DNA from: Dokdonella sp. | Lineage (GTDB): Bacteria; Pseudomonadota; Gammaproteobacteria; Xanthomonadales; Rhodanobacteraceae | Length of the DNA stretch: 64,000 bases | NCBI GenBank assembly: GCA_023228465.1 | Contig: JALOBC010000015.1 | Location: forward strand, 16,515 to 80,514 | Direction of reading: 5' to 3' | In this document: piece by piece, positions 33,682-63,355 of the stretch | How the letters are laid out: the number at the start of each line of letters is the position of its first letter | Numbering within the stretch: the stretch's first letter is position 1 | Made by a program: the position numbers and the translations under genes | The notes under the pieces: model-generated | Told to the model about the DNA's origin: nothing | Databases searched by the model: none | Seen by the model: only the letters and a program-made list of their open reading frames with translations

Positions 33682-35049
33682 GTGAGCGGCATCCCGTTGC
33701 ATGTGATCGTGCTCGCCGCCGGCGAAGGCAAGCGCATGAAGTCGGCCCAGGCCAAGGTGCTGATGCCGCTGGCTGGCCGACCGATGCTGGCGCATGTACT
33801 GGATACCGCGCGCAGGCTGCAACCGGCCCGCATCCACATCGTCTACGGGCATCGCGGCGACCAGGTGCGCGCCGCCGCCACCGACCTGGGCGACCTCACC
33901 TGGGTGCACCAGCCGCAGCAGCGCGGTACCGGCCACGCCGTGCAACTGGCAATGGCCGGCATCGCCGGCGCGGCGCGCGTCCTGGTGCTTTACGGTGACG
34001 TGCCGCTGATCCGCGTGGAGACGCTGCAGAAACTGCTGGCCACCGAGGCCACGCTGGTGGCCCTGGTCACCCAGCTCGAAAATCCCTACGGCTATGGCCG
34101 CGTGCTGCGCGACGGCATCGGCCGCATCCGCGCCATCGTCGAGGAGAAGGACTGCACGGTCGAGCAGCGCGCGGTCAACTGCATCAACAGCGGCATCCTG
34201 GCCGCCGATGCCGGGCGCCTGCGTGGCTGGGTGGCGACCCTCGGCACCACCAACGCACAGCACGAATACTACCTGACCGACGTGTTCGCCAAGGCCGCCG
34301 ACGAGGGCGAACCGGCGGCGGCCAGCCTGTGCATCGATCCACAGGAAGTGTTCGGCGCCAACGATCCCTGGCAGCTGGCCGCCCTGGAACGCATGTACCA
34401 GCGACGCTGCGCCACTCACCTGGCCGCCGCCGGGGTACGCTTCGCCGATCCGGTACGCTTCGATGCCCGCGGCGAGGTCAGTGCGGGGCGTGACGTGGAG
34501 ATCGACATCGACGTCATCCTCGAAGGCCTGGTGGAGCTTGGCGACGAGGTGCGGATCGGCCCCTACTGCCGCATCCGCAATTCCACCCTCGCGGCCGGAA
34601 CGGTGGTGCATTCGCACTGCAACCTGGACGGCGTGGTCACCCACGGCCCCTGCAGCATCGGCCCGTACGCACGCCTGCGCCCGGGCACGGATCTGGCTGC
34701 CGGCGTGCATGTCGGCAGCTTCGTGGAGACCAAGCAGGCACGCTTCGGCCGCGACGCCAAGGCCAACCACCTGAGCTATCTCGGCGACGCCGAGATCGGC
34801 GCCGGCGTGAACATCGGCGCAGGGACCATCACCTGCAACTACGACGGCGCCTCCAAGCACCTGACCGCGATCGAGGATGGCGTGTTCGTCGGCTCCAACA
34901 GCTCGCTGGTCGCACCGGTGCGCATCGGCCGCGATGCCACCATTGGCGCGGGCTCGGTGATTGCCGGCGAGGCGCCGGCCGGCGAACTCACGCTCTCGCG
35001 CGTGCGCCAGCGCAGCGTGCCGGGCTGGCGCCGGCCCGGCAAGCGTTGA
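33682..35049 (+). CDS. glmU: Bifunctional GlcN-1-P acetyltransferase / GlcNAc-1-P uridylyltransferase
   Basis: A 455-residue cytosolic enzyme making UDP-GlcNAc for peptidoglycan, lipopolysaccharide and other glycans. The N-terminal uridylyltransferase has [11 protein letters not shown] (residues 11-21; the usual Thr is Lys here) and VLYGDVPL; the C-terminal left-handed beta-helix has [26 protein letters not shown] and [17 protein letters not shown]. The start is GTG with GGGGAG 5 bases upstream. It directly precedes genes using UDP-HexNAc, although it is also a housekeeping enzyme. Confidence 0.97.
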
Positions 35050-35179
35050 CCGGCGCTCGTGCAGGAGCGCAACGCGTGTATCGTCCTGGCCTGCCGGCGC
35101 CTGCGCCAAGGGCAGTCGCCCGTCCGTCAGCCTGCCGCTTGGCGGCGCAGCGCGGGCCTGACCAACCACCCTGTTCCCA

Positions 35180-36490
35180 ATGAGCCTGCTGGAACCTGCA
35201 ATGGAAGCACCCCTGCCCATCCTCGATGACGCACAGCTTGCGGTCATCGGCCTAGGCTACGTCGGCCTGCCGCTCGCGGTCGGCTTCGGCCGCCAGTTGC
35301 CGACACTCGGCTTCGACGTGAACGCCGCGCGCATCGACGAACTGCGCGCGCACCGCGACCACACGCTGGAGGTGAACGCCGAAGAACTGGCGCAGGCGCA
35401 GCACCTGCGCTTTGCCACCGATCCGGCCGAGCTGGCGCGCTGCAATGTGTTCATCGTCACCGTGCCGACGCCGATCGATGCCGCCAAGCGACCGGATCTT
35501 TCCCCGCTGGAAGCGGCCAGCCGCACGGTCGGGCGCGCCATGCGCCGCGGCGACGTGGTGGTGTATGAATCCACCGTCTATCCGGGCGCGACCGAGGAAG
35601 TGTGCGTCCCCATCATCGAACGCGAATCGGGGCTCAGGTACCGGATCGATTTCCATGTCGGCTACAGCCCGGAACGCATCAACCCCGGCGATCGGGAGCA
35701 TCGCCTGGAGTCCATCCTCAAGATCACTTCCGGTTCCAGCCCGGCAGCCGCCGATTTCGTCGACGCGCTATACCGCAAGGTGGTCAGGGCCGGCACCCAC
35801 AAGGCGTCCAGCATCCGCGTGGCCGAAGCGGCCAAGGTCATCGAGAACACCCAGCGCGATCTTAATATCGCCCTGGTCAACGAACTGGCACTGATCTTCC
35901 ATCGCCTCGGCATCGACACCGCCGAGGTGCTGGCTGCGGCCGGTACCAAATGGAACTTCCTACCCTTTCGCCCCGGGCTGGTCGGCGGCCACTGCATCGG
36001 CGTGGATCCGTACTACCTGACCCACAAGGCGCAGCAGATCGGCTACCACCCGGAAGTGATCCTGTCCGGCCGTCGCATCAACGACGGCATGGGCGAGCAT
36101 GTGGCGCAGCGCGTGATCAAGCTGATGACCCAGCACTGCATCCAGGTGGTCGACTCGAACATCCTCGTCCTCGGCCTGGCCTTCAAGGAGAACTGCCCCG
36201 ACCTGCGCAACACGCGCGTGATGGACGTGATCAACGAGTTCGCCAGCTACCGCGCCAACATCGACGTGTATGACCCCTGGGTCGATGCGGCCGCGGCCGA
36301 ACGCGAGTACGGCATCCGCCTCATTCCCGAACTGGCACCCGATCACTACGACGCGATCGTGCTCGCGGTCGCGCACCGGCAGTTCCTCACCCTGGGCGCG
36401 CGCGGCATCCGCGCGCTGGGGCGCCCGGGTTGCGTGGTATTCGACGTCAAGCAGGCGCTGCCACGCAGCGAAGTGGACGACCGCCTCTGA
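35180..36490 (+). CDS. UDP-N-acetylhexosamine C6 dehydrogenase (TviB/WbpA type)
   Basis: A 436-residue nucleotide-sugar dehydrogenase of the UDP-GlcNAc/GalNAc branch. The NAD Rossmann motif is [12 protein letters not shown] (about 22-33); [41 protein letters not shown] and [12 protein letters not shown] with catalytic Cys272 follow; [17 protein letters not shown] ends the UDP-binding domain. It oxidises C6 to a carboxylate in two NAD steps, giving a UDP-N-acetyl-hexuronate for polysaccharide. The start may be 35180 or the ATG at 35201. A hairpin sits directly after its stop. Confidence 0.92.
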
Positions 36491-36509
36491 GGCCGCCGAC
36501 CGGGCGGCC
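36491..36509 (+). terminator. GGCCGCC/GGCGGCC hairpin directly after the dehydrogenase gene
   Basis: A perfect 7-base stem with loop GACCG starts on the base after the stop codon. It lacks a T-run, so it may be a weak terminator or an RNA 3'-end stabiliser. Confidence 0.4.
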
Positions 36510-36640: not shown

Positions 36641-37564
36641 ATGGACGGGGAATCTCGTGCGCTGATCGACCTCGATTGGGATCGCTTCCACCCGTGGCGC
36701 ATCCAGCCAGTGCGCCATCGCCTGGCTGCGCATCCATTGCTGCAACCGGCGCAACTGGTGGAACTTGGCAAGCGGCTGGAACGGCTTGGGCGGGTGCGCA
36801 CCCACAGCGACGACGCCACTCCGGGGACCTCCTTCAACGCCGCGCCGCGCCTGCACCCGCACCGCAAGTCGGCGGCGGAAACGCTGGCCGACATCCACGC
36901 GGCGCGCGCCTGGATGTCCCTGCTCAACGTGCAGGCCGATCCGGTCTATCGCGCCCTGGTCGATGCGGTGCTGGACGATATCAGGCCCAGCGTGGAGCGC
37001 AGCGACCCGGGCATGTGCTATCGCGGTGGCTGGATCTTCGTCACCTCGCCGCGCACGGTGACCCCCTTCCACTTCGACAAGGAGCACAACTTCATCCTGC
37101 AGGTGCAGGGGCGCAAGACGCTCTACGTCTGGGACCACCGCGACACCGAGGCCGCCAGCGAACGCGCACGTGACCGTTTCCACGCCACCCACGAGCGCGA
37201 CCTGCTGGTCTGGCGCGAGGAACTGCGCGAGCGCGCGCAGGTCTTCCACCTGGAGCCCGGCCAGGGCGCCTACATGCCATCCACCAGTCCACACATGGTG
37301 GAGAACGGCGACGGCCCCTCGATCACCATGAGCTTCACCTACTACACCCACGCGACCCGTCGTGACAGCGCGCTGCACAGCCTGCACGAACGCCTGCGCG
37401 GGCTTGGCATCGCCCTGGCCCCGGTCGGCCATCGACCGGCGGTGGACGCCATGCTCCATCACGTCGGAGGCAGCGTGCGGGCGGTACGCCACGTGCTGCG
37501 CAAGCTGGCCGGGCGCCCGGTCTTCCCCACCAGCGCACCCTACGCCTTCACGGAAACCTACTGA
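36641..37564 (+). CDS. Cupin/JmjC-like protein, putative Fe(II)/2-oxoglutarate dioxygenase
   Basis: A 307-residue soluble protein. The central region TPFHFDKEHNFILQVQGRKTLYVW carries an HxD pair, and PGQGAYMPSTSPHMVENG supplies a distal His, the three-residue iron site of cupin_8/JmjC-like oxygenases. Such enzymes often hydroxylate amino-acid side chains, free or carrier-bound. It sits between the UDP-sugar dehydrogenase and the megasynthase genes, so action on the assembly-line product or on the glycan is plausible but inferred. Start ATG at 36641; the final residues AYAFTETY are not informative. Confidence 0.75.
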   Translation: MDGESRALIDLDWDRFHPWRIQPVRHRLAAHPLLQPAQLVELGKRLERLGRVRTHSDDATPGTSFNAAPRLHPHRKSAAETLADIHAARAWMSLLNVQADPVYRALVDAVLDDIRPSVERSDPGMCYRGGWIFVTSPRTVTPFHFDKEHNFILQVQGRKTLYVWDHRDTEAASERARDRFHATHERDLLVWREELRERAQVFHLEPGQGAYMPSTSPHMVENGDGPSITMSFTYYTHATRRDSALHSLHERLRGLGIALAPVGHRPAVDAMLHHVGGSVRAVRHVLRKLAGRPVFPTSAPYAFTETY

Positions 37565-37866: not shown

Positions 37867-37880
37867 ATGACCCGATGTGA
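37725..37880 (+). CDS. Short open frame overlapping the synthase start
   Basis: 51 codons from an ATG with an excellent ribosome site (GGGGAGGG, 4 bases away). It ends at a TGA 11 bases inside the megasynthase gene, in another frame. The synthase ATG at 37867 has no ribosome site of its own. Either this is a short upstream peptide that couples translation, or it is the true start of the synthase and the seven-G run carries an extra base. The peptide resembles nothing I know. Confidence 0.35.
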
Positions 37881-40800
37881 CCCGCCTGCGCACGCCCTCG
37901 CCATCCGCCTGGACGACGTGCTGCCCCGCCAACCGGCGGCCAGCCCGACCCGCGCGCCACCGGCGACTGCGCTTGCCCTGGGCGCAGCGCAATTGGCAGC
38001 ACTCGCCACGCGCGCCCGCCGGCTCGGCCTGACGCCGGCGGATCTTGGTCGCGCGGCCCTGGTGCTCACCGAGGCGCGCCTGACCGGCAACGCCCAGATC
38101 GCAACGGCCGATGGCGGCGCCCTGCCAGTGCCCGCCGCGGGCGCCCTGGATGCGTGGCTGGCCAGCACGCTCGGGGCCGACCAGGCCGCGGCGCCGCTCG
38201 CCGCGGGTGCCTGGCTGGCCGACGCGCGCGCCGCGCAGGCCGCGCTGGCCGAAACACGCTTCGCCTGGTGGCTGGACGAAGCCGGCCTGCACGGCCGCGC
38301 CCGCGATGGCGCCGACGCAGACGCCCTGCGCATCCTGGCCAGGGCCCTGGCCAATGTCCTGAGCGGCCTGGCGGATGCGTCCACCCTGGAAGAGGTGTCG
38401 GCCCTCGATGCCGCGACGCGGCAGCGCCTGTTGCACGACTGGAACGCGACCGCCGTCGCGCGCCGTCCCGACGACAGCATTCATGGCCTTTTTGCCGAGG
38501 TCGCCGCGCGCTGCCCGCAACGCATTGCCATCATCGATGGCGACACGCGCATCGACTACGCCACGCTCGCGCGCCGGGCCGACGATATCGCGCACGCGCT
38601 CGCCGCCCACGGCGCCGCGCCAGGCGAGGTGGTGGCCGTGCTGCTGGATCGCTCGGCCGAGGCGCTCGCCGTGCTGCTCGGCATCCTGCGTGCCGGCGCG
38701 GCCTACCTGCCACTCGATCGCAAGCATCCGGCCGAACGCCTCGCCGCCACCCTGGCCGATGCCGGCGTCCGCCTGGTGATCGCGCAGCAGGACGCTCCGG
38801 CCGCCGCGGCCTGCGCGGCAACCCGGCTGCTGGCGCTGGAGGACCTCCACGCCGCGGCTGCAGTCGGCGCACTGCCACCGCCCGTCACCGGCGCCGCGCC
38901 TGCCTATGTGATGTACACCTCCGGCTCCACCGGCACCCCCAAGGGCGTGGTGGTGCCGCACCGCGCCGTCATCCGCCTGGTGCGCGACGTGGACTATGTC
39001 GATTTCGGCACGGCGCCCTGCCTGCTGCACGCCGCGCCGCTGGGTTTCGATGCCGCCACCTTCGAGATCTGGGGCGCGCTGCTGAACGGCGGCACGCTGG
39101 TCGTGCACCGCGAGTCCATCCCGACCGGCGCCGCGCTCGCCGCCACCATCGCGCACGGCGGGGTGCGCATTGCCTGGCTGACGGCGGCGCTGTTCAACGC
39201 CATCGTGGATGACGATCCGCAGCACCTGGCCGGGCTCCACCAGCTGCTGATCGGTGGCGAGGCCCTGTCCGTGCCGCACGTGCGCAAGGCGTTGTCCGCC
39301 CTGCCCGACACCACCCTCATCAACGGCTACGGCCCGACCGAGTGCACCACGTTCGCGGCCACCTACCGCATTCCGCGCGACCTTGCGGCCGATGCGCCGT
39401 CGATTCCGCTCGGCCGCCCCATCGCCAATACCCGCCTGTACGTGCTCAATGCACGCGCCGAGCTGGTGCCGCCCGGCGTGCGCGGCGAACTTTACATTGG
39501 CGGCGAGGGCGTTGCGCTGGGCTACCTGGAGCGTCCGCAACTGAACGCCGAACGCTTCCTGGCCGATCCGTACGGCACGCCCGGCGCACGCATGTACCGC
39601 AGCGGCGACCAGGTGCGCTGGCAGGAAGATGGCACGCTGGAATTCGTCGGCCGCAGCGACGGGCAGGTCAAGATCCGCGGCTTCCGCATCGAGACCGGCG
39701 AAATCGAGGCAGCCCTCAAGCGCCACCCGGCGGTGCGCGATGCCGCGGTGGTGGCGCGCGAGGATCAGCCCGGCCGCAGGCGCCTGGTGGCCTATTTCGT
39801 AGCGGCCGCGCCGGTCGAGCCGCCCGCCCTGCGCGCCGCGCTCGCGCGCCACCTGCCCGAGTTCATGGTGCCGGCGCTTTACCTGCGCCTGGACCACCTG
39901 CCGGTCACGCCAAATGGCAAGCTCGACCGCCGCGCCCTGCCCGTACCCGAGCGGCGCCGGCCGGAGCTTGCCGTCGACTTTGCGCCACCGCGCGGCAACG
40001 CCGAACAGCGCGTCGCCGCGATTTTCGCCGACCTCACCGGCGTCGAAGCGGTCGGCCGCGACGACAACTTCTTCGAACTGGGCGGCGATTCGCTGCTCGC
40101 GCTCAAGGCAATGGCCGAAATCGATGCCGGCCCGGCACTCGGCATCGCCGACTTCTTCGCCGGACCCACCGCCGCCGGCATCGTCGCGCTGCTGGAACGC
40201 GCTGGCCCGACCGCCGCCGCCGCTGAACCCGGGCGCCCGCCCCCGGCCAACGCAAGCCAGGAACCGATCGCCATCATCGCCATGGCCGGCCGCTTCCCCG
40301 GCGCCAGCGACGTCGAGACCTTCTGGGACAACCTGTGCGCGGGCCGCGATTCGATCCGCTTCTTCGCCCCGGACGAACTCGATCCCGCCATCCCCGCCGC
40401 GCAGCGCGACGATCCCGCGTATGTGCGCGCCCGCGGCGTGCTCGAGGACGTGGCCGGGTTCGATGCCGCCTTCTTCGGCATCACTCCGCGCGAAGCGGAC
40501 CTGATGGACCCGCAGCAGCGCATCTTCCTGGAGCTTTGCTGGGAATGTTGCGAGCGCGCCGGCGAGGTGCCGGGACGCGGCGCCCCGGTCGGCGTGTTCG
40601 CCGGCATGTACAACGCGACCTACTTCCAGCAGCAGGTCAGCCGTCGCCCCGACCTGGTCGCCAAGTTCGGCGCCTTCCAGGTAATGCTGGACAACGAGAA
40701 GGACTACATCGCCACGCGTGTGGCGCACAAGCTGGATTTCACCGGTCCGGCCATCAGCGTGCACACCGCCTGCTCGACCTCGCTGGTGGCGATCTGCCAG

Positions 40801-43800
40801 GCCGTGGACGCCTTGCGCGCGGGCCACTGCACGATGGCGCTGGCCGGCGGCGTGGCCGTCACCTGTCCGCCGGCCAGCGGCTACCTCTACCAGGAAGGCG
40901 GCATGCTCTCGCCCGACGGTCACACGCGCAGCTTCGCCGCCGATGCGCAGGGCACGGTGTTCAGCGACGGCGCGGCGGTGGTGCTGCTCAAGCCGCTCGC
41001 CCAGGCGTTGGCCGACGGCAACCCGGTGCATGCGCTGATCCGCGGCGGCGCCGTGAACAATGATGGCGGCGGCAAGGCCAGCTTCACCGCTCCCAGCAGC
41101 AGCGGCCAGGCGCAGGTGATCGAGCGCGCCCTGGCTGCGGCCGGCGTGCACGCGCGCTCGATTTCCTACATCGAGACGCATGGCACCGCCACGCCACTTG
41201 GCGACCCGATCGAGATCGAGGGGCTGACCCGCGCCTTCCGCCGCGATACCACGGCCACCGGCTTCTGTGCCATCGGCTCGGTGAAGAGCAACATCGGCCA
41301 CACGGTCATCGCCGCGGGCGCGACCGGCGTCATCAAGACCGCGCTGGCGCTGGCCGAACACCGCCTGCCGCCGACGCTGCATGTCGCGGCAACGAATCCC
41401 GCCATCGACTTCGCCCAGTCGCCCTTCGTGCCCAATCGCGAGTTGCGCGCATGGACCAGCAGCGACGGCACGCCGCTGCGCGCCGGCGTCAGTTCGTTCG
41501 GTGTCGGCGGTACCAACGCGCACCTCATCTTGGAGGAAATGCCCGCGCGGCCGGCCACGCAAACCGGCGCAGGTCCGCACGTGCTGCTGCTCTCCGCGCG
41601 CACGCCGACCGCCCTCGCCGCGATCCGCGCGAACCTCGCCCGCCACCTGGCGGCGCACCCGGACAGCCATCTCGCCGATGTGGCCTGGACGCTCGCCACC
41701 GGTCGCAAGGCCTTCGCCCTGCGCAGCGCAGTGGTGGCCGCCGACGCTGCGGCTGCAGTGGCCGCCCTGGGCGCCGCGGCGGCGCCACGCACCGCCCAGC
41801 CAGGCAGCGGCACCGTCTTCATGTTCCCCGGCCAGGGCGCGCAGTACGCCGGCATGGGTCGCGCCCTGTACGCTGCCGAACCGGTGTTCCGCGATGCGCT
41901 GGATACCTGCGCCGAGCGCCTCGCCGGCATGCTCGGCTTCGACCTGCGCGAGCGCCTGTTCGCGGACGATGCCGCGGCGCTGCGCGAAACCGCACTCACC
42001 CAGCCGGCGACCTTCGCTATCGAATATGCGCTGGCGCAGTTGTGGCTGGACGTCGGCCTGCGCCCGGACGCGCTGGTCGGACACAGCATCGGCGAGTTCG
42101 TCGCCGCGGTGCTGGCCGGGGTGATGAGCCTGGACGACGGCTTGCACCTGATCGCCCTGCGCGGACGGCTGATGCAGGCGCTGCCCGCTGGCGCGATGCT
42201 ATCGGTGCGCCTGGATGCCGCGACCCTCGCCGCGCGCCTGGCGCCGCCACTCTCGCTCGCGGTCGAGAATGCGCCCGACGCCTGCGTGGTCGCCGGCCCC
42301 CTTGCCGCGGTGGAGACCCTGCGCATCGCGCTCGAGTCCGACGCCATCGCCTGCCGCAGGCTGCCCACTTCGCATGCCTTCCACTCGGCCATGATGGACC
42401 CGGTGGTCGCGCCGCTGCGCGAGGCGGTGGCCCACGTGGCGCTGGCCGCGCCGAGCATCCCGATCATCTCGACGCGCACCGGCGCATTGCTCGGCGACGC
42501 GCAGGCGACCTCGCCCGGGCATTGGGCCGACCACGCGCGCGACTGCGTGCAGTTTGCACGCGCGCTGGCCAGCCTGCACGCGCGCGACCCCGACGCCGTG
42601 CTGCTGGAAGTGGGGCCGCGCGCCACCCTGACCCGGCTGGCGCACCGGCAACCGGGGCGTCCGCGCGCGGCCATCGCCTCGCTCGGCGACCAGGTCGCAG
42701 ACGAGGTGCTGGCCTGGCGGCAAGCCGCCGGGGCCGCCTGGTGCGCGGGCGCGGCGCTCGACTTCACGCGCCTGGACCGGCGCGCACACCGGCAGCTGCT
42801 GCGCCTGCCCAGCTATCCCTTCGAGCATGTGCGCCACTGGATCGATGCGCCCATCGATGCGCCCGCCGATGCGGCACCCACGTCCCGGGTCGGCGCGCCG
42901 CCACCGTTGCCGATCGCCCCACCGGAAACCGCCATGTCAACCGCGCCCCCCACCCCTGCCCCGCCCGCCGCCGACCTGCGCCTGGCACGCCTCCGCACCG
43001 AGCTGGCCGCGCTGATCGAGGACGTGGCCGGCATCGACGTGGGCGAAGCCCCGCCGCAGGCCGATTTCGTCACCCTGGGCCTGGATTCCCTGGCCCTCAC
43101 CCAGCTCGCGCTGCAGGCCAGCCGGGCCTTCGACCTCAAGCTCACGTTCCGCCAGCTGATGGAAGACCTCGATTCGCCCGAGAGGCTCGCCATGCATATC
43201 GACCAGAACCTGCCCCCCGAGGCGGCCACGCCCGGCCCGCCGACGCCTGCAAGCACCGCGCCTGCGCCTGCCGCCACGCCCACGGCAACCGTGCCAGACG
43301 CGGCCGCCACGCCCGGCGGCGCCTTGCTGCGCGAGGTCATCGCCCAGCAGATGGCCTTGATGCAGCAGCAATTGGCGCTGCTGGGCGGCGCACCCGCCAC
43401 CGCACCCGTTGCCCCACCCGCGGCCGCGACGACGCCAGCGGCTGCGCCAGCGCCCGCCGCGCCGCCGGCCACACCGGTCGCTGACGAGGAAGCCGCGTTG
43501 GCACACACGCGCTACGACGTCAGCAAGGCCTTCGGCGCGATCGCGCGCATCCATTCCAGCCGCGGCGAGGCGGGGGAACGCCAGCGCCTGCGCCTGGACG
43601 CCTTCATGCGCCGCTACCTGGAGCGCACGCGCAAGTCGCGTGAGTACACCGAGCAGCATCGACCACACCTGGCCGACCCGCGGGTGGTCACCGGCTTTCG
43701 ACCGCAACTCAAGGAAATCACCTACCAGATCGTGGTCGAGCGCTCGCAGGGCGCGCACCTGTGGGACCTGGACGGCAACCGGTATGTCGATGCCCTGAAC

Positions 43801-49979: not shown

Positions 49980-50092
49980 GGTCTGCCCGGTCATCCGCCG
50001 GTCGTGGCGTGGCGCCTGAACCTGTCCTGACGCCAGGCGCGCATGCCGGCCAATCCGGCGTCAAACCCGCGCGGACGCGCAAATGGCGGTTC

Positions 50093-50098
50093 TATACT
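50093..50098 (+). promoter_or_regulatory. Candidate -10 (TATACT) before the polysaccharide export operon
   Basis: TATACT (5/6) lies about 100 bases before the export lipoprotein ATG. The surrounding TATACTTTGTC resembles the CATACTGTGAC core of the shared motif at 8 of 11 positions. No strong -35. Confidence 0.4.
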
Positions 50099-50200
50099 TT
50101 GTCGCACGCCGCGTTGCGTTCGATGCCGCGCGCATCGCCTGGCTGCAGCGGGGCAAGGGGAAGCGATCCAACGGACCAATCAACTACCCGGGAGGTTTCG

Positions 50201-54524: not shown

Positions 54525-55319
54525 ATGCCGCCCGTCCTGCCGCCACCGCGCCGCACCATCCTGATGTACCACGCGGTACGCGCGCCGGGCGTGAGCGTGG
54601 CTGGCGAGGATCCGCACTACACGGTCGAGCGCGACGCGTTCCTCGCCCAGCTGGATCTGGCCCAGGCCGGTGGCCGCGGGGTCGGCTGCGCCCGTGACCT
54701 GCTCGCCGGCGCGGACGGGCAGAGCGTGGCCCTCACCTTCGACGACGGCCACCTCAGCAACTACACGGTCGCCTGGCCGGAGCTGCTGGCACGCGGGCTG
54801 CGCGCCGACTTCTTCATCAATCCCGCCAGTGTGGGTCGACGCGATTTCGCCAGCTGGGCACAGTTGCGCGAGATGGCGCAAAGCGGCATGTCGATCCAGT
54901 CGCACGGTTACGAGCATCGCTATTTCGACGACCTCGATTCAATCGCGCTGGACGTCCAGCTGGCGCGTTCACGCGGCGAGATCGAGGAGCACATCGGCCA
55001 GCCGGTCACCCTGCTGGCGCCGCCCGGCGGACGCGCGCCGCCGGGCCTGCTCCCGCGCGCGCGCGATCTGGGTTACCGGCACGTGCTCGGCTCGCGCCCG
55101 GGCCATCTGCGTGCCGACGCCGGCAGCCGCATCCTGCCGCGCGTGGCGGTCACGGCCGACCTGGACGAGGCCCGCCTGGCCGCCTGGCTGGATGGATCCC
55201 GCCTCGTGGACCTGCGTGCACAGCTGCGCCACGATCTGCTCGGCGCGGCCAAGCACGTGCTCGGCAACCGGCGCTACGAGCGCCTGCGCGGGCGTCTGCT
55301 CGGACCGGCCCAGGGCTGA
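54525..55319 (+). CDS. Polysaccharide deacetylase (NodB/CE4 family)
   Basis: A 264-residue CE4 enzyme. Motif 1 is LTFDDGH (catalytic Asp and metal Asp), motif 2 SHGYEH (HxxxxH-type metal His pair), motif 3 LAPPGGRAPPG in place of RxPxG, which is altered. It would remove N- or O-acetyl groups from the polysaccharide, possibly GlcNAc-derived residues. No signal peptide is evident, so action in the cytosol or at the membrane is possible. It starts 8 bases after the barrel gene. Confidence 0.9.
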   Translation: MPPVLPPPRRTILMYHAVRAPGVSVAGEDPHYTVERDAFLAQLDLAQAGGRGVGCARDLLAGADGQSVALTFDDGHLSNYTVAWPELLARGLRADFFINPASVGRRDFASWAQLREMAQSGMSIQSHGYEHRYFDDLDSIALDVQLARSRGEIEEHIGQPVTLLAPPGGRAPPGLLPRARDLGYRHVLGSRPGHLRADAGSRILPRVAVTADLDEARLAAWLDGSRLVDLRAQLRHDLLGAAKHVLGNRRYERLRGRLLGPAQG

Positions 55320-55323
55320 TCGC

Positions 55324-56487
55324 ATGCTGGCCCTGCTGCTGTGGATCTGCCTGACCCTGCTGGCCTTCACCTATGTCGGCTACCCGCTGGTGATCTGGCT
55401 GCGCGCGCGCCTCGCGCCGCGCCCCCCGGGCTATCTGGAAGCCCACTGGGAACCGCGCGTGGACGTGCTGCTGGTGGTGCACAACGGCGCAGCCATGCTG
55501 CGGCGCAAGCTGGACAACCTGCTGGCGCTGGACTACCCGCCGGAACTGCTGCGCATCCACGTCGCCTGCGATGGCTGCGATGACAACAGCGTGTCGCTGG
55601 CCCGCGCCCACGGCGATCCACGCATCCAGGTACACGCCTTCGCCGCAAGGCGCGGCAAGTCGGCCTGCCTCGGCGACGTGCTGGCGCACCTCGACGCCGA
55701 GGTGGTGCTGTTCTGCGACCTGCGCCAGCGTATCGACGCCGGTGCGCTGCGCGCGCTGTTGCGCATCCTGGTCGATGTGCGGGTGGGCGCGGTCAGCGGT
55801 GCGCTGGTGTTCGAGCCGGCCGACGATCGCGGCTTCGCCCGCAGCGTCGATGCCTACTGGCGCTACGAGCGCTTCGTGCGCGAGCAGGAGGCCATCAGCG
55901 GCTCGGTGACCGGCGCCAGCGGCGCCCTGTACGCGGCGCGGCGCGCCCTGATTCCACCCATACCGCCGGGGCTGATCCTCGATGACCTGTGGATCCCGCT
56001 GGCGGTTGCGGCCGGCGGTGCGCGCGTGGGCTTCGCCAGCGATGCCCTGGCCTTCGATCACGCCAGCGCCGATCCTGCCATCGAAGCGGCGCGCAAGCGG
56101 CGCACCCTGGCCGGCAACTTCCAGCTGATCGCGCGCGACCCGGGCCTGCTGCTGCCGTGGCGTCACCCATTGGCCTGGCGCCTGTGGGGTCACAAGTGGC
56201 TGCGCCTGGCGGCACCCTGGCTGATGGCGCTGGCCCTGCTGGCCAATCTCGTGCTGGCCGTGGACAGCCGCCACTACCTGCTGCTGGCCCTGGCACAGCT
56301 GGCCTTCTACGCCCTGGCCGCGCTGGCGTGGCGGGTGCCGACGCTGGCGCGCTGGCGGCCTGCACAGATCGCCGCCACCTTCGTGCGCATGAACGGCTAT
56401 GCCGCGCTCGGCCTGCTCGATTTCCTGCGCGGCGCGGCGGCCACGACCTGGCAGCCGACCACCAACCCGGCGCCGCCGCATGAATGA
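55324..56487 (+). CDS. Membrane glycosyltransferase family 2
   Basis: A 387-residue GT2 with an N-terminal helix (LALLLWICLTLLAFTYVGYPLVIWL), a GT-A core VDVLLVVHNGAAMLRRKLDNLLALDYP, the metal/donor region VVLFCDLRQRID in place of DxD, SGALYAARRA, ILDDLWIPL, and C-terminal membrane helices (about 300-345). Adds a sugar to the repeat unit or acts processively; donor unknown. It starts 4 bases after the deacetylase stop and overlaps the next gene by 8 bases. Confidence 0.9.
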   Translation: MLALLLWICLTLLAFTYVGYPLVIWLRARLAPRPPGYLEAHWEPRVDVLLVVHNGAAMLRRKLDNLLALDYPPELLRIHVACDGCDDNSVSLARAHGDPRIQVHAFAARRGKSACLGDVLAHLDAEVVLFCDLRQRIDAGALRALLRILVDVRVGAVSGALVFEPADDRGFARSVDAYWRYERFVREQEAISGSVTGASGALYAARRALIPPIPPGLILDDLWIPLAVAAGGARVGFASDALAFDHASADPAIEAARKRRTLAGNFQLIARDPGLLLPWRHPLAWRLWGHKWLRLAAPWLMALALLANLVLAVDSRHYLLLALAQLAFYALAALAWRVPTLARWRPAQIAATFVRMNGYAALGLLDFLRGAAATTWQPTTNPAPPHE

Positions 56488-57715
56488 TGTCCGGGCCAGC
56501 CCGCCGCTGCGCGTGCTCTACGTGGTTTCGCTGTTCCCGTGCTGGTCGGAAACCTTCATCCTGCGCGAGTTGCATGCGCTGGCCGGCCATGGCGCCGAAC
56601 TCGGCATCCTCTCGCTCAAGCCGCCCAGCGAAACGATGGTCCAGCCCGGTGCCGCCGAGCTGCTCGAGCGCACCCGGCACCCGGCCGGCGCCGTGCGCTC
56701 GATGCTCGCCATGCTCGCCCTGTCGGCGCGCCATCCGCGCGTGGTAGGCGGCTTCCTGGCCACCCTGCTGACCGGAATGTGGCGCCAGCCGCGCGCGCTG
56801 ATCCTCAGCCTGGGCACGCTGTGCCGCGTCGCCGGGCAATGGCGCTGGATACGCCAGTTCGACCCGCACATCATCCATGCGCCCTGGGCCACCTACCCGG
56901 CCACCGCCGCGTGGTTCATCTCGCGCCTGAGCGGACGGCCGTTTTCCTTCACCAGCCGCGCCCACGACATCTTCGTCGAAGACCAGATGATGACGGAAAA
57001 GCTCGCCAGCACGGCCCTGGCCGTGACCATCACGCGCAACAACGTGCGCCACATGGCACGCTGGATGGCCACCCCCGGGGCGATTCCGATCCAGGTCGTG
57101 CATTCCGCGCTCGACCCCACGCAGATCGCCTACCGCCGCGATGGGCGCCGGCCGCACCAGCTGCTGTCGGTCGGCCGGCTCGATCCCATCAAGGGCTTCG
57201 ACGTGCTGCTTGCGGCGCTGGCCAAACTGGCGCAGCGCGGGGTTGCCTTCGACAGTCTCATCATCGGCGACGGCGCGGAACGCGCGCGCCTGGAGGCGCA
57301 GCGCGACGCCCTGGGCCTGCGTGACCGGGTCACCTTTGCCGGTACCCGCTCGTCCACCCAGGTGCGCGAAGCGATGCATGCCGCGACCCTCATGGTGATG
57401 CCCTGCGTGGTGACCCCGGAAGGCAACGCCGACGGCATCCCGAACGTGCTGACCGAAGCGCTCGCCGCCGGCCTGCCGGTGGTCAGCACGCGCGTTTCCG
57501 GCATCCCCGAGTTGATCGACGACGGCATCAGCGGACGCCTGGTGGCACCGCGTGACCCGCATGCCCTGGCCGACGCCATCGTCGGCCTGCTGGACGACCC
57601 GGTACTGCGCGACGCGTTTGCCGCCGCCGGACGGCGCAAGGTGGAACTGGAATTCGACGTGCGCATCGAATCGGGACGCCTGTTCGGGCACCTGCTGGAG
57701 GCGGCCCATGGCTGA
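56480..57715 (+). CDS. Glycosyltransferase family 4, first of three
   Basis: A 411-residue GT4/GT-B enzyme. N-terminal acceptor domain VVSLFPCWSETFILRELHALAGHGAELGIL; donor domain SVGRLDPIKGFDVLLAALAKL, then the E-x7-E signature in VVTPEGNADGIPNVLTEALAAGLPVVST. The SETFILRE start is found in colanic-acid/EPS transferases (WcaL-like). Retaining transfer from a nucleotide sugar at the cytosolic membrane face. The donor is not readable. It overlaps both neighbours. Confidence 0.93.
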   Translation: MNDVRASPPLRVLYVVSLFPCWSETFILRELHALAGHGAELGILSLKPPSETMVQPGAAELLERTRHPAGAVRSMLAMLALSARHPRVVGGFLATLLTGMWRQPRALILSLGTLCRVAGQWRWIRQFDPHIIHAPWATYPATAAWFISRLSGRPFSFTSRAHDIFVEDQMMTEKLASTALAVTITRNNVRHMARWMATPGAIPIQVVHSALDPTQIAYRRDGRRPHQLLSVGRLDPIKGFDVLLAALAKLAQRGVAFDSLIIGDGAERARLEAQRDALGLRDRVTFAGTRSSTQVREAMHAATLMVMPCVVTPEGNADGIPNVLTEALAAGLPVVSTRVSGIPELIDDGISGRLVAPRDPHALADAIVGLLDDPVLRDAFAAAGRRKVELEFDVRIESGRLFGHLLEAAHG

Positions 57716-58820
57716 GCTGCTGCGCGTGCTCATCGTCAGCGACGAAATGGAAGTCGGCGGCAGCCAGCGGCAGATCGCCGGATTGCTGCGCGCCCTGCCG
57801 CGTGCGCAGTGTCATGTGGAGCTGGCCTATTTCCGCAACCCTTCCTTCCTTGTGGACGACATCGAACAGGCCGGTACGACCGTGCACCTGGTGGCCAAGC
57901 GCCGCCCCATCGACCTGCGCTTCCTGCACGAGCTGGTGGGCTTCCTGCGCCGCGGCCGCTTTGACGTGATCCACTGCTTTTCGCTGACCGCCGAGCTGTG
58001 GACGGCGCTCGCGCTACGCCTGGCGCCGGGCGCACGGATGATCGCCTCGATGCGCGACATGGGCCACGGGCTGACCCCCCTGCAGTGGCGGCTCAAGCGC
58101 CGCGTCTGCCGCCAGGCCCGCGCGGTGATCTCCAACTCGCGCGGCGTGGCCGACTACCTGCGCGCGCAGATCGGCGCGCACCCGCCACAATTCGTGATCG
58201 CCAACGCGGTCGATCCGCCCGCCCCGCTCGCCGCCGCCGAACGGGAAGCGCTGCGCCTGGCGTTGGGCGCGCAGGCCGACCGCCCGCTGGCCCTGTTCGT
58301 GGGCCGCCTGGCGCATCAGAAGAACGTCGAACTGCTGCTCGGCGCGCTGGCTGCCCTGGCGCCAGCGCAACGACCCCAGGTCGCGCTGGCCGGCAGCGGC
58401 CCACTGCGCGCGGACCTGGAAGCGCAGTCACGCGAGCTGGGCCTGGAGCGGGTGGTGCGTTTCCTCGGCGAGCGCCGCGACGCGCCGGCCCTGATGCAGG
58501 CCGCGGACCTGCTGGTGCTGCCCTCGCGCGACGAGGGCCTGTCCAACGTCGTCATCGAAGCCATGGCCGCCGGCTGCCCGGTGCTGGCCACGCGCGTGGG
58601 CGGCAACCCGGAGCTGATCGAAGACCAGGTGTCCGGCATCCTGTTCGACAGCGGCGACGGTGTTGCCCTGGGCGCCGCGCTGGCCGAACTGTGCGCGGAT
58701 GCGCCGCGCCGCCAGGCGATGGGCGAGGCTGCGCGCGCGCGGGTGGCCGACCGCTACTCGCCGGAGCGGCTGGCGCGCGAGACCCTGGCCGTCTACCGGC
58801 ACTGCCTGGAGGCCGCGTGA
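57708..58820 (+). CDS. Glycosyltransferase family 4, second of three
   Basis: A 370-residue GT4 enzyme with the N-terminal loop EMEVGGSQRQIAGLLRAL, donor motif FVGRLAHQKNVELLLGALA and E-x7-E in PSRDEGLSNVVIEAMAAGCPVLATRVGG. Cytosolic or membrane-associated; assembles the repeat unit. It starts 8 bases inside the upstream gene and its stop overlaps the next GTG (GTGA). Confidence 0.93.
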   Translation: MAELLRVLIVSDEMEVGGSQRQIAGLLRALPRAQCHVELAYFRNPSFLVDDIEQAGTTVHLVAKRRPIDLRFLHELVGFLRRGRFDVIHCFSLTAELWTALALRLAPGARMIASMRDMGHGLTPLQWRLKRRVCRQARAVISNSRGVADYLRAQIGAHPPQFVIANAVDPPAPLAAAEREALRLALGAQADRPLALFVGRLAHQKNVELLLGALAALAPAQRPQVALAGSGPLRADLEAQSRELGLERVVRFLGERRDAPALMQAADLLVLPSRDEGLSNVVIEAMAAGCPVLATRVGGNPELIEDQVSGILFDSGDGVALGAALAELCADAPRRQAMGEAARARVADRYSPERLARETLAVYRHCLEAA

Positions 58821-60133
58821 GCCAGGCCAGCCCCATCCGCCGTCCGACGCGGCCTGCAGCCGCGCCCCCGCACCGGCTGCGCATCCTGATGGTGCTGGAA
58901 AGCGAGTTCCCGCCACGCCGTGGCGGCGGGTCGGAATATCAGGTGCGCACCCTGGGTGAGGCGCTGCACCAGCGCGGCCACCGCGTCAGCGTGCTCACGC
59001 CGCGTCTGATCGACGGGGCGCAGGCATCGGTCGAGCGTTATCGCGGCCTGGCCGTGGCGCGCCTGGCCTACCCCCACCTGCGCGTTCTTGGCGGGCTGGT
59101 GATGATGGCGCGCATGGCCCTGTTCCTGCGCCGGCATGCACGCCATTACGACGTGGCGCACGTGCACATCGCCCACCACCTGGCCGCGGTGTGCTGCCTG
59201 GTCGCGCCGGTGCTGGGATTGCGCACGCTCGTCAAGGTCGCCGGCGTGTGGGAGCTGCGCGACGGCCTGCTGCGCAGTCCAGGCAACCCGCTGACGCGCG
59301 CGCTGCGCCCGCTATGGCGGCGCGCCGACGGCTGGCAGGCGGTGAGCTCGCGCATTGCCGGCCACCTGGCTGGCCTGGGGATCGCGCGCGAGCGCATCCA
59401 TGCCATCCCGAACGCGGTGGACCTCACACATTTCTCCGCGCAGCGCGAGCCGCGCGCCGCCGGCACGCCGCGCACCCTGCTGTATGTGGGGCGGCTGGCG
59501 CCCGAGAAGGATCTGCCCACCCTCCTGCGCGCCTGGGCACGGGTGTTTGCCGGGCGCACGGACCGGCGTCTGTGGCTGGTCGGCTCCGGCGTGCAGCAGG
59601 AAGCGCTCGAACGGCTCGCCGGCGAACTGGGCTGCACCGCCAGTATCACCTTCCTTGGCCATCGCGACGATGTTGCCGACGTGCTCGCGCAGGCCGATGC
59701 CGGCGTCCTGCCCTCGCTGGTCGAGGGCCTGTCCAATACCCTGCTCGAGTTCATGGCCTGCGGCCTGCCGGTGCTGGCCTCGCGCGTCAGCGGCAGCGAG
59801 GATCTGATCGAACCGGGCGTGACCGGCTGGCTGCACGCACCCGGTGACCTGGACGGCCTTGCCACGGCGCTGCGCGCCATGGATGGCGCCAGCGACGCGC
59901 AGCTGGCAACGCTGGGGCACAACGCCCGCAGCGTGGTCGCCCGGTGCGCTTCACGCGAGCAGGTGATCGATCGTCTGCTGGCCGCCTACACTGGCAGCGT
60001 GGATGGCGACCCGGCCACGCCACCGCCCGCGCCTGCCGAGCCGGGTGCACCCGCGCCATCCGCGCCGCTACCGCCGGCGGCCCCACCGCGCGACCCTGCA
60101 GGCGTCGCCCGCCACCCCACCGGAGCGCGCTGA
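58817..60133 (+). CDS. Glycosyltransferase family 4, third of three, with Pro/Ala tail
   Basis: A 438-residue GT4 starting at GTG 58817 on the previous stop. The acceptor loop is ESEFPPRRGGGSEYQVRTLGEAL, the donor motif YVGRLAPEKDLPTLLRAW and the E-x7-E part PSLVEGLSNTLLEFMACGLPVLASR. The last 40 residues are a low-complexity Pro/Ala tail (DPATPPPAPAEPGAP...) not needed for the fold. Sugar specificity unknown. Confidence 0.92.
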   Translation: MSQASPIRRPTRPAAAPPHRLRILMVLESEFPPRRGGGSEYQVRTLGEALHQRGHRVSVLTPRLIDGAQASVERYRGLAVARLAYPHLRVLGGLVMMARMALFLRRHARHYDVAHVHIAHHLAAVCCLVAPVLGLRTLVKVAGVWELRDGLLRSPGNPLTRALRPLWRRADGWQAVSSRIAGHLAGLGIARERIHAIPNAVDLTHFSAQREPRAAGTPRTLLYVGRLAPEKDLPTLLRAWARVFAGRTDRRLWLVGSGVQQEALERLAGELGCTASITFLGHRDDVADVLAQADAGVLPSLVEGLSNTLLEFMACGLPVLASRVSGSEDLIEPGVTGWLHAPGDLDGLATALRAMDGASDAQLATLGHNARSVVARCASREQVIDRLLAAYTGSVDGDPATPPPAPAEPGAPAPSAPLPPAAPPRDPAGVARHPTGAR

Positions 60134-60134
60134 C

Positions 60135-62003
60135 ATGTGTGGAATCGCCGGCTACGTCGTTGCCCCTGGCGCCGCGCCACCCGACGTGCGCGACGCGCAC
60201 GCCATGAACCAGGTGATCCGCCATCGTGGCCCGGACGACGAAGGCGTGTTCTGCGACGCGCGCGCGCTGCTCGGCATGCGCCGACTGGCGATCATCGACC
60301 TGGCCTCCGGCCACCAGCCACTGACCAGCAGCGATGGCCAGGTGCACGTGGTATTCAACGGTGAAATCTACAACTTCCGCGAACTGCGCGAGGAACTGGC
60401 CGGACTGGGCCACAGCTTCCGCACACGCAGCGAAGCGGAGGTCATCGTCGAGGCCTACATCGCCTGGGGCGAAGGCTGCTTCGCCCACCTGCACGGCATG
60501 TTCGCGATCGCGCTGTGGGATGCGCGCAGGCAGGTGCTGCTGCTGGCGCGCGACCGCTTCGGCGAGAAGCCGCTGTACGTCGCCGAGCAGGCCAGCCGCC
60601 TGCTGTTCGCCAGTGAGCTGAAATCCCTGCTGCAGGTCCCGGGTTTCGCGGCAGGACTGGATCGCGAGGCCCTGCGCGGCTACGTCGCGTTCGGCTACGT
60701 ACCATCGCCACGCAGCATCCTCGCCGGCGTGCGCAAGCTGGCGCCCGGCCATTACCTGCGCTATGCGGACGGCAAGGCCAGCATCCAGCGCTACTACCAA
60801 CTGCGCTTCGAGCCCAAGACGCGCGCCAGCGAAGCCCAGGCGGGCGAGGAGCTGGCCCACCTGCTGGAGCAGGCGGTGTCCTCGCGCCTGGTGTCGGACG
60901 TGCCGTTTGGCGCCTTCCTCAGCGGCGGGCTCGATTCCTCGGTGGTGGTCGCCCTGATGTCGCGGCACCTGACCCAACCGGTCAAGACCTTCTCGATCGG
61001 ATTTCGCGAAGCGGAGTTCAATGAACTGGACGACGCGCGCCGCGTCGCCAACCTGCTCGGCACCGAACACCATGAACTGATGGTGGACCCGGATGCGGTA
61101 GCCCTGCTGCACACCCTGGTATGGCACCTGGACGAACCCTTTGCCGACGCCTCCGCCCTGCCCACCTACCTGGTCGCGCAACTGGCCAGCTCGCACGTGA
61201 AGATGGCCCTCAGCGGGGACGCGGGCGATGAAACGTTTGCCGGCTACACACGCTACCTGCGCTACCTGCGCCTGCATCAGTTGGGCGCGCTCAAGCCGCT
61301 CGCCGCCGCCGTCGCGACGCTGGGCGGCCATCTGCTGGGGGGGAGCAACCGCCGTCGCCTGCTGCGCATTGCCGAGAGCCTGCGCCTGCCGTTTCCCGAC
61401 AACTACCTGAGTGTCGTCGCCCTGACCCGCGTCGAGCGCGCGCAGGCCCTGCTGGGCGAAAGGGGCAGCCATTACGAGACGCTGGCCGCGGCCTGGGCGC
61501 AGGATCTGCCACGCGACCCGCTCGACCGCATCGTGGCCATCGACTTCGCCAGCTACCTGGCCGACGACATCCTGGTCAAGGTCGACCGCATGAGCATGGC
61601 CAATTCGCTGGAAAGCCGCGCGCCGCTGCTCGACCATCGCCTGGTGGAGTTTGCCGCCAGCCTGCCGGCCAACCTGCGCATCCGCGGCGGGCGCGGCAAA
61701 TACCTGCTGCGCCAGGTCGCAGCGCGCTGGCTGCCGCCGGACGTGCTGGAGAAGCGCAAGCAGGGCTTTGGCCTGCCCCTGGCCAGGTGGTTCCGCGGGC
61801 CGTTGCGCGAACTGGCCAGTGACCTGCTCGCCAGCCGCGCCTTCCGCGAACGCGGCCTGATCGACCCGCACGCAGCCGAGCAGTGCCTGCAGCAGCACCT
61901 GTCCGGCGCGGACGATTGCAGCGAGGCCCTGTGGCTGATCCTCAGTCTCGAACTGTGGGCGCGGCGATTCCTCGATGAGGGGGCGCGCGAGAACCCGCCA
62001 TGA
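60135..62003 (+). CDS. Asparagine-synthase-type amidotransferase of the EPS locus
   Basis: A 622-residue AsnB-like protein. The glutaminase domain begins with the nucleophile Cys2 (MCGIAGYV) and has RHRGPDDEG and FNGEIYNFRELR; the synthetase domain has the PP-loop SGGLDSS (about 262) and DGD-like SGDAGDETFAGY. Homologues in EPS and exosortase-linked loci are thought to amidate sugar carboxylates instead of aspartate, which would suit the uronate made by the dehydrogenase at 35180. A biosynthetic asparagine role cannot be excluded. Its stop overlaps the next ATG (ATGA). Confidence 0.9.
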   Translation: MCGIAGYVVAPGAAPPDVRDAHAMNQVIRHRGPDDEGVFCDARALLGMRRLAIIDLASGHQPLTSSDGQVHVVFNGEIYNFRELREELAGLGHSFRTRSEAEVIVEAYIAWGEGCFAHLHGMFAIALWDARRQVLLLARDRFGEKPLYVAEQASRLLFASELKSLLQVPGFAAGLDREALRGYVAFGYVPSPRSILAGVRKLAPGHYLRYADGKASIQRYYQLRFEPKTRASEAQAGEELAHLLEQAVSSRLVSDVPFGAFLSGGLDSSVVVALMSRHLTQPVKTFSIGFREAEFNELDDARRVANLLGTEHHELMVDPDAVALLHTLVWHLDEPFADASALPTYLVAQLASSHVKMALSGDAGDETFAGYTRYLRYLRLHQLGALKPLAAAVATLGGHLLGGSNRRRLLRIAESLRLPFPDNYLSVVALTRVERAQALLGERGSHYETLAAAWAQDLPRDPLDRIVAIDFASYLADDILVKVDRMSMANSLESRAPLLDHRLVEFAASLPANLRIRGGRGKYLLRQVAARWLPPDVLEKRKQGFGLPLARWFRGPLRELASDLLASRAFRERGLIDPHAAEQCLQQHLSGADDCSEALWLILSLELWARRFLDEGARENPP

Positions 62004-63355
62004 TCCTGCGCCTGCTGCTCGGTGTGCTGGTCGTCTACATGGTGTACGAGGCGCGCCTGGCGATCGACACCGGCATCACCGGGCTCAACCTGGCCAACCT
62101 GCTGATGCTGGCCACCGTGGTGATGATGATGCTGCACCACGACCCGGATCCGCCGCCTTCGCCGGCACGCCTGCGCACGCCCTTGTTGCTGTGGTTCCTG
62201 GCCCTTGGCCTGGGGCTGGTCATCGCCATGACCCGTGCCCCCGGCAACACCATGGACGACATCACCTACCTGAAGACGGCGATCTTCTCGCCCTTGCTGT
62301 ACTTCGTGATGCTGCGCTCGCGGCTGGAGTTCCGACATGTGCGCCTGCTGATCATCCTCACCCTGGTGGTGGCCGTGGTCGGCGGCGTGCAGGCGATCCG
62401 CCAGGCGCTGGACTTCGGCATCACCCATTTCCAGGAGACGCACCGCTCCACGGGGCCGTTCGGCCCGGAAATCTCCGCCGCGAACCGCGCCGGCGTGTAC
62501 TTTGCCATGTACCTGCCGATGTTCCTGGCGCTGGCCTTGTTCCTGCGCGGCCAGCGCGCCTGGCGCAGCGCCGCGGTGTTCGGCGTGGTGGTGCTGGGCC
62601 TGGGTATCCTGTTCACCTACTCGCGGCAGTCCTATTTCATCGCCCTGGTGGCCGTGGCGGTGCTCAGCCTGCGTCGCAACATCGTCTTCGCCGCGATCCT
62701 TTCCGGCGTCTTGATCTTCCTCGGTGGCTACCTGCCCAGCAGCGTCGAGCAGCGCGTGGACAAGACCGAACAGCGCGGGCCCCACGGCGGCGAACAGTTC
62801 GACGTCTCCACGGTCAGCCGCTGGGAGATCTGGGCCGGCGCAATGGAAATGTGGGAGCGACATCCGGCCGGGGTCGGCCTGCACCGCTTCCCCGACGAGA
62901 TCGGCAAGTATTCCAAGTGGAAGCACATGGACGCGCACAACTTCTACGTGCTGACCCTGGCCGAGGCCGGCCTGCAGGGGCTGGTCGCGCTGCTGTGGCT
63001 GTTGTTCGCATTGTTCCGTCTCGCCGGACACCTGCGACGAAGCGCGCCGCAGGACAATGCCGAGGCACGCGCACTTGCGCTGGGATTCACCGTGGCGACC
63101 CTGTGCATGGCGCTGGGCAACCTGTATGGCAGCCCGTTCCTCGAAGGCCGGGTCATGGGCAGCTACTGGATGCTGTGCGGCCTGCTGGAACGCTACATGC
63201 ACCTGCTGCGAGGCACGGCGGTGGCGGGCGCCGCGGCAGCCACCGAGACCGAAGCTGCAGAGCCGGCCCACGCCATTGCGCCAGCTCGCTTCCCGCTTGC
63301 CGAGCGCACCCTGCCAGGGCGCGTCTGGCTGCGCCGTGACCCGGGTCACGAATAG
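62000..63355 (+). CDS. O-antigen ligase/polymerase-family membrane protein
   Basis: A 451-residue polytopic protein, about ten helices, of the Wzy/WaaL (Wzy_C) class. A large periplasmic loop, GYLPSSVEQRVDKTEQRGPHGGEQFDVSTVSRWEIWAGAMEMWERHPAGVGLHRFPD, ends with an H-A/N motif (MDAHNFYVLTLAEAG) typical of ligases and polymerases. It would polymerise the repeat unit or transfer the finished chain. It is the last gene of the overlapping run; no flippase is seen in the window. Confidence 0.9.
   Translation: MILRLLLGVLVVYMVYEARLAIDTGITGLNLANLLMLATVVMMMLHHDPDPPPSPARLRTPLLLWFLALGLGLVIAMTRAPGNTMDDITYLKTAIFSPLLYFVMLRSRLEFRHVRLLIILTLVVAVVGGVQAIRQALDFGITHFQETHRSTGPFGPEISAANRAGVYFAMYLPMFLALALFLRGQRAWRSAAVFGVVVLGLGILFTYSRQSYFIALVAVAVLSLRRNIVFAAILSGVLIFLGGYLPSSVEQRVDKTEQRGPHGGEQFDVSTVSRWEIWAGAMEMWERHPAGVGLHRFPDEIGKYSKWKHMDAHNFYVLTLAEAGLQGLVALLWLLFALFRLAGHLRRSAPQDNAEARALALGFTVATLCMALGNLYGSPFLEGRVMGSYWMLCGLLERYMHLLRGTAVAGAAAATETEAAEPAHAIAPARFPLAERTLPGRVWLRRDPGHE

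Follow-up and report, generated by a model that had tools for sequence, protein, structure and literature searches.

Two adjoining megasynthase genes, M1 and M2, lie among exopolysaccharide (EPS) genes in a 64,000-nucleotide stretch of Dokdonella sp. DNA (assembly GCA_023228465.1), called the window below, which forms the end of contig C85 in a genome of 3.42 Mb; the contig stops at base 64000. M1 (37867–45054, + strand) is a hybrid nonribosomal peptide synthetase–polyketide synthase (NRPS-PKS) and M2 (45051–49979, + strand) is an NRPS; the two genes overlap by four bases (45051–45054). The pairing with EPS genes recurs across genomes, and we give an even chance to the reading that M1-M2 is a mobile cassette which makes a carrier-bound β-amino-acid peptide for EPS. 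The cassette would comprise M1, M2, a phosphopantetheinyl transferase (PPTase), two putative hydrolases named hydr2 and hydr1 and, in many Lysobacterales loci, a cupin, and would be built into EPS loci of the Wzx/Wzy type.

In the numbering of its longest open reading frame (ORF), which begins at 37744, M1 consists of an adenylation domain (A, 250–732), a carrier domain (T), a ketosynthase (KS, 840–1214), an acyltransferase (AT, 1358–1639), a second carrier domain (1753–1818) and a class-III aminotransferase (AMT, 1995–2335). Codon scoring gives 37867, not 37744, as the probable start of the gene. M2 has two condensation domains (C), one A domain and two T domains, and the family scan found no thioesterase (TE) match in the window copy. 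The strings A-T-KS-AT-T-AMT and C-A-T-C-T, first proposed in a sequence-only reading of this DNA, are borne out by family scans and motifs. Indeed, the active-site motifs are intact in the window copies: the KS cysteine, the AT motifs GHSxGE and HAFH (the latter presumably a mark of malonyl specificity), the AMT lysine that binds pyridoxal phosphate (PLP), both HHxxxDG motifs and both carrier serines. All of 66 full-length M1 sequences, the window copy counted, carry HAFH; 62 have the KS cysteine motif and 61 that of the PLP lysine. Of the best 25 NCBIfam families for each protein, the general adenylation domain TIGR01733 alone reaches its cut-off (423 bits for the A domain of M1, against a cut-off of 317).

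M1 passes as a β-amino-acid module of the type found in MycA of the mycosubtilin and iturin synthases, that is, KS-AT and a carrier followed by a MycA-like AMT with its PLP lysine. The AMT of mycosubtilin synthase aminates a β-keto thioester. MycA (6kfm) is the closest solved chain to the AMT of M1 (E 8e-117, compared to 4.6e-54 for glutamate-semialdehyde aminomutase, 5i92). Unlike MycA, which we take to start with a fatty acyl ligase, M1 opens with a Val-like A domain, stands in EPS loci and belongs to no lipopeptide string.

The A core motif is single in 28 and double in 11 of 39 M2 sequences (window counted). The extra A domain is DILQ-type and Gly-like in its intact form and appears degenerate by eye in L032, L037, L069 and L100. 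Since relatives carry this extra Gly-like domain, sometimes degenerate, the terminal C-T of the window M2 is probably a reduced module that is loaded by the Gly A domain. Two unusual ends were seen by eye: the M2 of L054 (16873–23010) has a TE-like stretch between two carrier domains (T-TE-T), an uncommon order, and that of L040 ends in a part which resembles a fused hydr2.

The specificity codes of the A domains, of which nine of ten positions were mapped by motif, are DAFWLGGTF for M1 and DILQVGLVW for M2, which we take to be Val-like and Gly-like, respectively; the meanings Thr, Ser and Pro given below are likewise assumed. M1 would thus load a Val-like amino acid, extend it with malonate and aminate the β-keto group, and M2 would add Gly and probably a second Gly, to give a carrier-bound β,γ-diamino peptide. 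On the basis of these codes, the chain made in the window is likely 3,4-diamino-5-methylhexanoyl-Gly(-Gly). Most proteobacterial M1 codes read DA(L/F)WxGGTF; the code is Thr-like in L056, L093, L105 and L108, Ser-like in L109 and of other kinds in L047, L052, L054 and L086. The M1 code of Bacteroidota is DVQ-type, Pro-like, in 10 of 21 loci and varied in the remainder. For M2, most Lysobacterales have a code of DILQ or DIMQ type and most Variovorax one of DMPQW type; L061, L088 and L108 have a Ser-like code. Because both codes vary among lineages, the product probably differs from lineage to lineage, and the Val/Gly prediction is restricted to the window.

At least 80 M1 loci were found, in Rhodanobacteraceae, Lysobacteraceae, Variovorax, Thiomonas, Bacteroidota and a few others; they were grouped from record titles, and EPS-type genes were recognised with profiles built here, in the fetched stretches. 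Among the matches listed, 43 of 80 loci have at least two EPS-type genes nearby: 27 of 33 of the Lysobacterales type, 2 of 12 of the Variovorax type, 5 of 14 others and 9 of 21 from Bacteroidota. Short contigs (L043, L052 and L074) are among the misses of the Lysobacterales type. Gene calling missed existing megasynthase genes in G012, in G244 and in parts of G024 and G278; the calls for G271 were poor, so that this genome was used for a hydr2 match only, with the calls of L044 and L095 in its place.

In 250 genomes of the order, the AMT of M1 was found in 34 (E up to 1e-110), the wza family TIGR03027 in 57 (E up to 1e-30; 52 above cut-off) and both in 33. In the lone M1 genome without wza, G213, the copy is 50% identical. 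At the genus level, wza is present in 18 of 18 genera with M1 compared to 9 of 59 others (hand count; Fisher test), and the Fisher values overstate independence because the genomes are related. Twenty-seven M1 copies, the window counted, are at least 70% identical; wza is on the same contig in 24 of them and on a different contig in 3. The distance is within 50 kb in 21 of these 24, and 93, 404 and 470 kb in the rest. In G255, where wza is 470 kb off, M1-M2 are still surrounded by glycosyltransferase, Wzy, deacetylase and sugar-transferase genes, so the cassette stayed with the repeat-unit genes. Loci of like order occur in several genera; in Lysobacter niastensis (G296), the cassette and the export genes are inside one 55-kb stretch. 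On a tree of 67 M1 sequences, the EPS label is present on both the Bacteroidota and the Pseudomonadota sides, with 14 changes.

The recurrence of the pairing across genomes and the linkage counts rule out a strict one-off insertion. They also speak strongly, together with the association with GT2 glycosyltransferases described below, against the idea that a secondary-metabolite cluster merely happens to stand beside EPS genes in this genome; this idea finds little support apart from the EPS-less Variovorax-type loci and is very improbable.

The comparison with a genome of another genus that has no M1 (G237) shows a common EPS run with and without the megasynthases. In G237 the run consists of atp-like genes, glmU, ugd, an epimerase, wza, wzz, a kinase and an outer-membrane protein gene; in the window, cupin-M1-M2 lie, in that order, between ugd and wza, and G237 has none of the three. 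The difference may be a gain in one genome or a loss in the other. In Dokdonella immobilis (G297), the EPS run adjoins the same atp-glmU genes, and cupin-M1-M2-hydr2-hydr1 lie about 50 kb off on the same contig. A PaaK-like ligase and deacetylases were considered as cassette members and rejected, as they are also present in EPS loci without M1.

The accessory genes follow a similar pattern. None of hydr1, hydr2, the PPTase of cassette type and the cupin was found in four M1-free EPS regions (40–57 kb each, the regions only), and hydr1 is present in 10 of 12 M1-type regions (the 7-kb contig of G016 excluded), among which G012, G015 and G018 carry a more distant M1-like AMT of about 57%. The cupin cluster was found in 21 sources, the window counted, with relatives near M1 in many Lysobacterales loci. 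In hydr1, a Gly-x-Cys elbow (Cys103), Asp232 and His233 are invariant in 24 of 24 aligned sequences; in hydr2, the matching elbow position is Arg93 in 21 of 21. From the positions of these motifs, hydr1 would be an α/β hydrolase with a Cys nucleophile and hydr2 a partner without nucleophile. Cys-type thioesterase-like enzymes can favour transfer, which makes hydr1 a candidate transferase. The product of L105:19980–21722 matches PF24793 (GINT1_N, the N-terminal domain of glucosamine inositolphosphorylceramide transferase); its cluster also includes L052, L059, L088 and L109, and it stands directly 3' of hydr1 in Lysobacter-type loci. A GMC-type oxidoreductase (L032:3261–4934 and relatives) is found between the epimerase and the PPTase in EPS loci of Rhodanobacteraceae.

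In the window version, which has no TE, hydr1 together with hydr2 would take the chain from the last carrier, and the acceptor of the chain would be an amino group in the repeat unit, for example one freed by the deacetylase of the locus. The NRPS-PKS line would then decorate the EPS: a β,γ-diamino-acyl-glycyl(-glycyl) chain, built on a carrier whose tail is cationic, would be moved by a Cys hydrolase and its catalytically dead partner to sugar amino groups, giving a cationic or zwitterionic peptidyl-polysaccharide in Lysobacterales and some Burkholderiales, with a TE variant in Bacteroidota. This fuller scheme is tentative: plausible, and slightly on the doubtful side.

The group might instead be linked to a lipid or a protein, or serve as a primer or anchor of the polysaccharide rather than as a repeating substituent. 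The last carrier ends in a cationic tail which might lie at the membrane: in all 34 M2 examined, the net charge of this C-terminal tail is +2 to +7 (of the 39 M2, 5 were excluded, the four of TE type and that of L040). The G255 cassette, kept with the repeat-unit genes when wza moved, is also compatible with such a role. On the other hand, the tail does not clearly surpass shuffled versions of itself in amphipathicity (2 of 34 do so at 0.05, and the window tail is below its shuffles), and no anchor enzyme was recognised, which leaves the primer or anchor quite improbable. These values do not support a strongly amphipathic membrane helix in the M2 tail, and the claim for the tail is therefore limited to its positive charge.

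A different possibility is that M1-M2 make a free small peptide (a signal, an antibiotic or a metal binder), which is merely co-expressed and co-inherited with the EPS locus. EPS loci can gather foreign genes, and most Variovorax cassettes have no EPS neighbours. In the sequence-only reading, homologues lying usually away from EPS genes were the counter-case; this is not what is seen in Lysobacterales, because the link recurs there, and it fits the Variovorax type, where 10 of 12 loci among the matches listed have no EPS gene in the fetched stretch (profiles built here; L046 and L080 end early, at contig ends). PPTase-hydr2-hydr1 are present in 8 of these 10. Similarly, TIGR03027 at E 1e-20 was found in none of the 8 Variovorax-type genomes searched. 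Six Variovorax cassettes (L041, L057, L067, L078, L084, L108) are directly followed, on the opposite strand, by genes which we take to encode a resistance-nodulation-division (RND) pump-like protein and a membrane-fusion-protein (MFP)-like partner. RND/MFP-like genes are also near M1 in Dyella L081. The distance from M1 to wza is 13 kb in Thiomonas (G280) and 44 kb in a metagenome-assembled genome (MAG, G278) of Burkholderiales.

The picture in Bacteroidota is mixed. No EPS-type gene was recognised with the same profiles in 9 of 21 loci, among the matches listed, and the M2 proteins mostly finish in C-A-T-TE by motif, which fits a released product; a TE motif is also found in 4 of 39 M2 (L054, L072, L086, L093), which fits release as well. 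On the contrary, the 117 proteins that flank M1 in the 21 loci include 15 GT2 and only 2 ABC_tran matches (Polysacc_synt 4, Bac_transf 3, Cupin_8 3; unrelated families such as OEP 4). A GT2 gene (profile built here) is within 6 kb in 8 of 21 loci, compared to about 6% by chance, or about 1.3 genes expected, at a background density of 234 GT2 genes in 41.3 Mb of 7 genomes. In Puia (G284), M1-M2 are ringed by two Cupin_8 proteins, a flippase-type protein, a GT2, an asparagine-synthase-like protein and a sugar transferase. This association, the recurrence of the cassette at varied positions in EPS loci of many genera and its place between ugd and wza in the window argue against a free peptide, which we consider unlikely without being far-fetched. 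The earlier alternative between a polysaccharide substituent and a small peptide made with the matrix is thus upheld as to the link of megasynthases and EPS, which is real and recurrent; the choice between the two is not decided by sequence. A further M1-M2 pair, in a record titled as a MAG of Bordetella parapertussis (L056; species label unchecked), is near a deacetylase, a GT2 and a sugar transferase gene.

Besides the Variovorax and Bacteroidota loci, the TE motifs and the relatedness of the genomes, other observations weigh against a cassette that serves EPS. The M1 of L105 and L109 has no AMT domain, so that their product should be without the β-amine; no AMT match was found in G301 and G302, in agreement with these copies. 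In the window genome itself, hydr1 and hydr2 are not beside M1-M2: they are at the end of contig C37 (L197:6707–14056), with a second cupin cut by the contig end and genes for a DnaJ-like protein, a protein named c10 and an epimerase, without M1-M2. In several Rhodanobacteraceae, hydr1 and hydr2 adjoin wza-wzz rather than M1-M2, and for this reason the statement that the hydrolases track the megasynthases rests on the four M1-free regions. The M1-associated GT2 follows M1 in part only: it is present in 29 of the 33 genomes that have both M1 and wza, compared to 8 of the 24 that have wza only. Finally, no exporter or dedicated sugar acyltransferase was recognised for the cassette, no search having been aimed at DltB or DltD. 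The C37 epimerase is 86% identical to EPS-locus epimerases and of the same family as that of the G237 run. The last ORF of the window (from 63801) had been considered as the missing first part of the cut cupin gene on C37; this is not supported, as the ORF begins like another protein, of secreted type, and there is no overlap between the contig ends.

Several known systems resemble the locus in part. EPS loci of the XrtA (PEP-CTERM) type are accompanied by a small AMP-ligase set (TIGR03098) and by the hydrolases TIGR03100 and TIGR03101. The window has in common with them a wza and a wzz above the family cut-offs, and relatives of hydr1 and hydr2 are closest to TIGR03100 (hydr1 of L054, 81.8 bits, cut-off 168.45) and TIGR03101 (hydr2 of L039, 82.6 bits, cut-off 202.75), in both cases far below cut-off in the two proteins scanned. 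It differs by its two multimodular megasynthases, and its kinase and amidotransferase are below cut-off. As regards a small ligase set with XrtA loci, a term search of PMC1569441 gave no match. The aminoacylation of teichoic acids by Dlt is alike in outline, in that it starts from a carrier loaded by an A domain and a polymer would receive the group, and the A domains of M1 and M2 match DltA models below cut-off; M1-M2 differ in being multimodular, PKS-extended, accompanied by a hydrolase pair and part of Gram-negative EPS loci. The sheath polysaccharides of Leptothrix and Sphaerotilus bear Gly and Cys substituents; no NRPS link for them turned up in the open-access literature searched, and the likeness is one of description only. 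An NRPS,T1PKS cluster, which may or may not be that of M1-M2, has been recorded in Rhodanobacter (PMC11596576), with no tie to EPS in the passages available. Neither a description of this layout nor a diffusible product of the same domain string was recognised in open-access full text (subscription literature was outside the scope), in line with what the sequence-only reading had stated or left to be checked.

As a rule, megasynthases are taken to produce diffusible natural products. What is new here is perhaps that a full NRPS-PKS line makes a carrier-bound group, possibly for a polymer; the principle of carrier-protein-based group synthesis is itself known. If the proposal is true, a widespread class of clusters is misfiled by genome-mining tools, and some biofilm polysaccharides carry a peptide side group that is genetically programmable. 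Because the cassette is linked to EPS genes, the idea can be tested directly.

From 33682 to 63355, all the genes found by gene calling and family scans are on the + strand. UDP-GlcNAc synthesis, a dehydrogenase and a cupin precede the two megasynthases, as had been described. These are glmU (33682–35049; TIGR01173, 560 bits, cut-off 367), a TviB-like UDP-GlcNAc 6-dehydrogenase (35180–36490; NF011729, 586.6 bits, slightly below the cut-off of 592, and TIGR03026 above cut-off) and a Cupin_8/JmjC-like putative oxygenase (36641–37564; PF13621 and PF08007 above cut-off). M2 is followed by a wza-like export protein of XrtA type (50201–50824; TIGR03027, 200.7 bits, cut-off 180, scanned inside the longer ORF 48959–50821), a chain-length determinant, wzz, also of XrtA type (50842–52392; TIGR03007, 368.7 bits, cut-off 278.85), a tyrosine autokinase (52389–53183; TIGR03018, 159 bits, below the cut-off of 230.65) and an outer-membrane protein weakly similar to TIGR03016 (53203–54516; 35.6 bits, below the cut-off of 90.85).

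Next come a polysaccharide deacetylase (54525–55319; PF01522), the GT2 family glycosyltransferase whose close relatives tend to go with M1 (55324–56487; PF00535) and three GT4 glycosyltransferases, at 56480–57715 (top match NF041876, GT4 EpsE, 176 bits, below the cut-off of 400), 57708–58820 (top match TIGR03088, 179 bits, below the cut-off of 409) and 58889–60133 (start uncertain; top match TIGR03088, 138 bits, below cut-off). An asparagine-synthase-like amidotransferase of EPS loci (60045–62003; TIGR03108, 634.7 bits, below the cut-off of 816.9, and TIGR01536 above cut-off) and a Wzy-like polymerase (62000–63355; PF04932) complete the run.

The locus had been described as of exosortase type with a full export, glycosyltransferase and polymerase set. 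The first point agrees with wza and wzz and is not upheld by the kinase and the amidotransferase, which are below cut-off; the exosortase XrtA itself (TIGR03109) matched in none of 13 genomes, that of the window included, in a search where the controls were equally silent. As to the second, export, glycosyltransferase and polymerase genes are present and the word full does not hold: no Wzx flippase or priming transferase is among the scanned window genes (few genes of the left half were scanned against families), and the sole Bac_transf match of the genome at E 1e-20 is on a different contig.

Two features lie upstream of the EPS genes. A run of genes at 17509–25249, which we take to be ATP-synthase-like, has the same neighbourhood in G237 and G009 and partly in G297, and the window has added genes between this run and glmU. 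Directly upstream of the EPS genes, on the opposite strand (31930–33513, − strand), is a gene for a sulfotransferase-domain protein with TPR repeats, which has a 66% relative near the equivalent place in G009 and might be involved in EPS sulfation.

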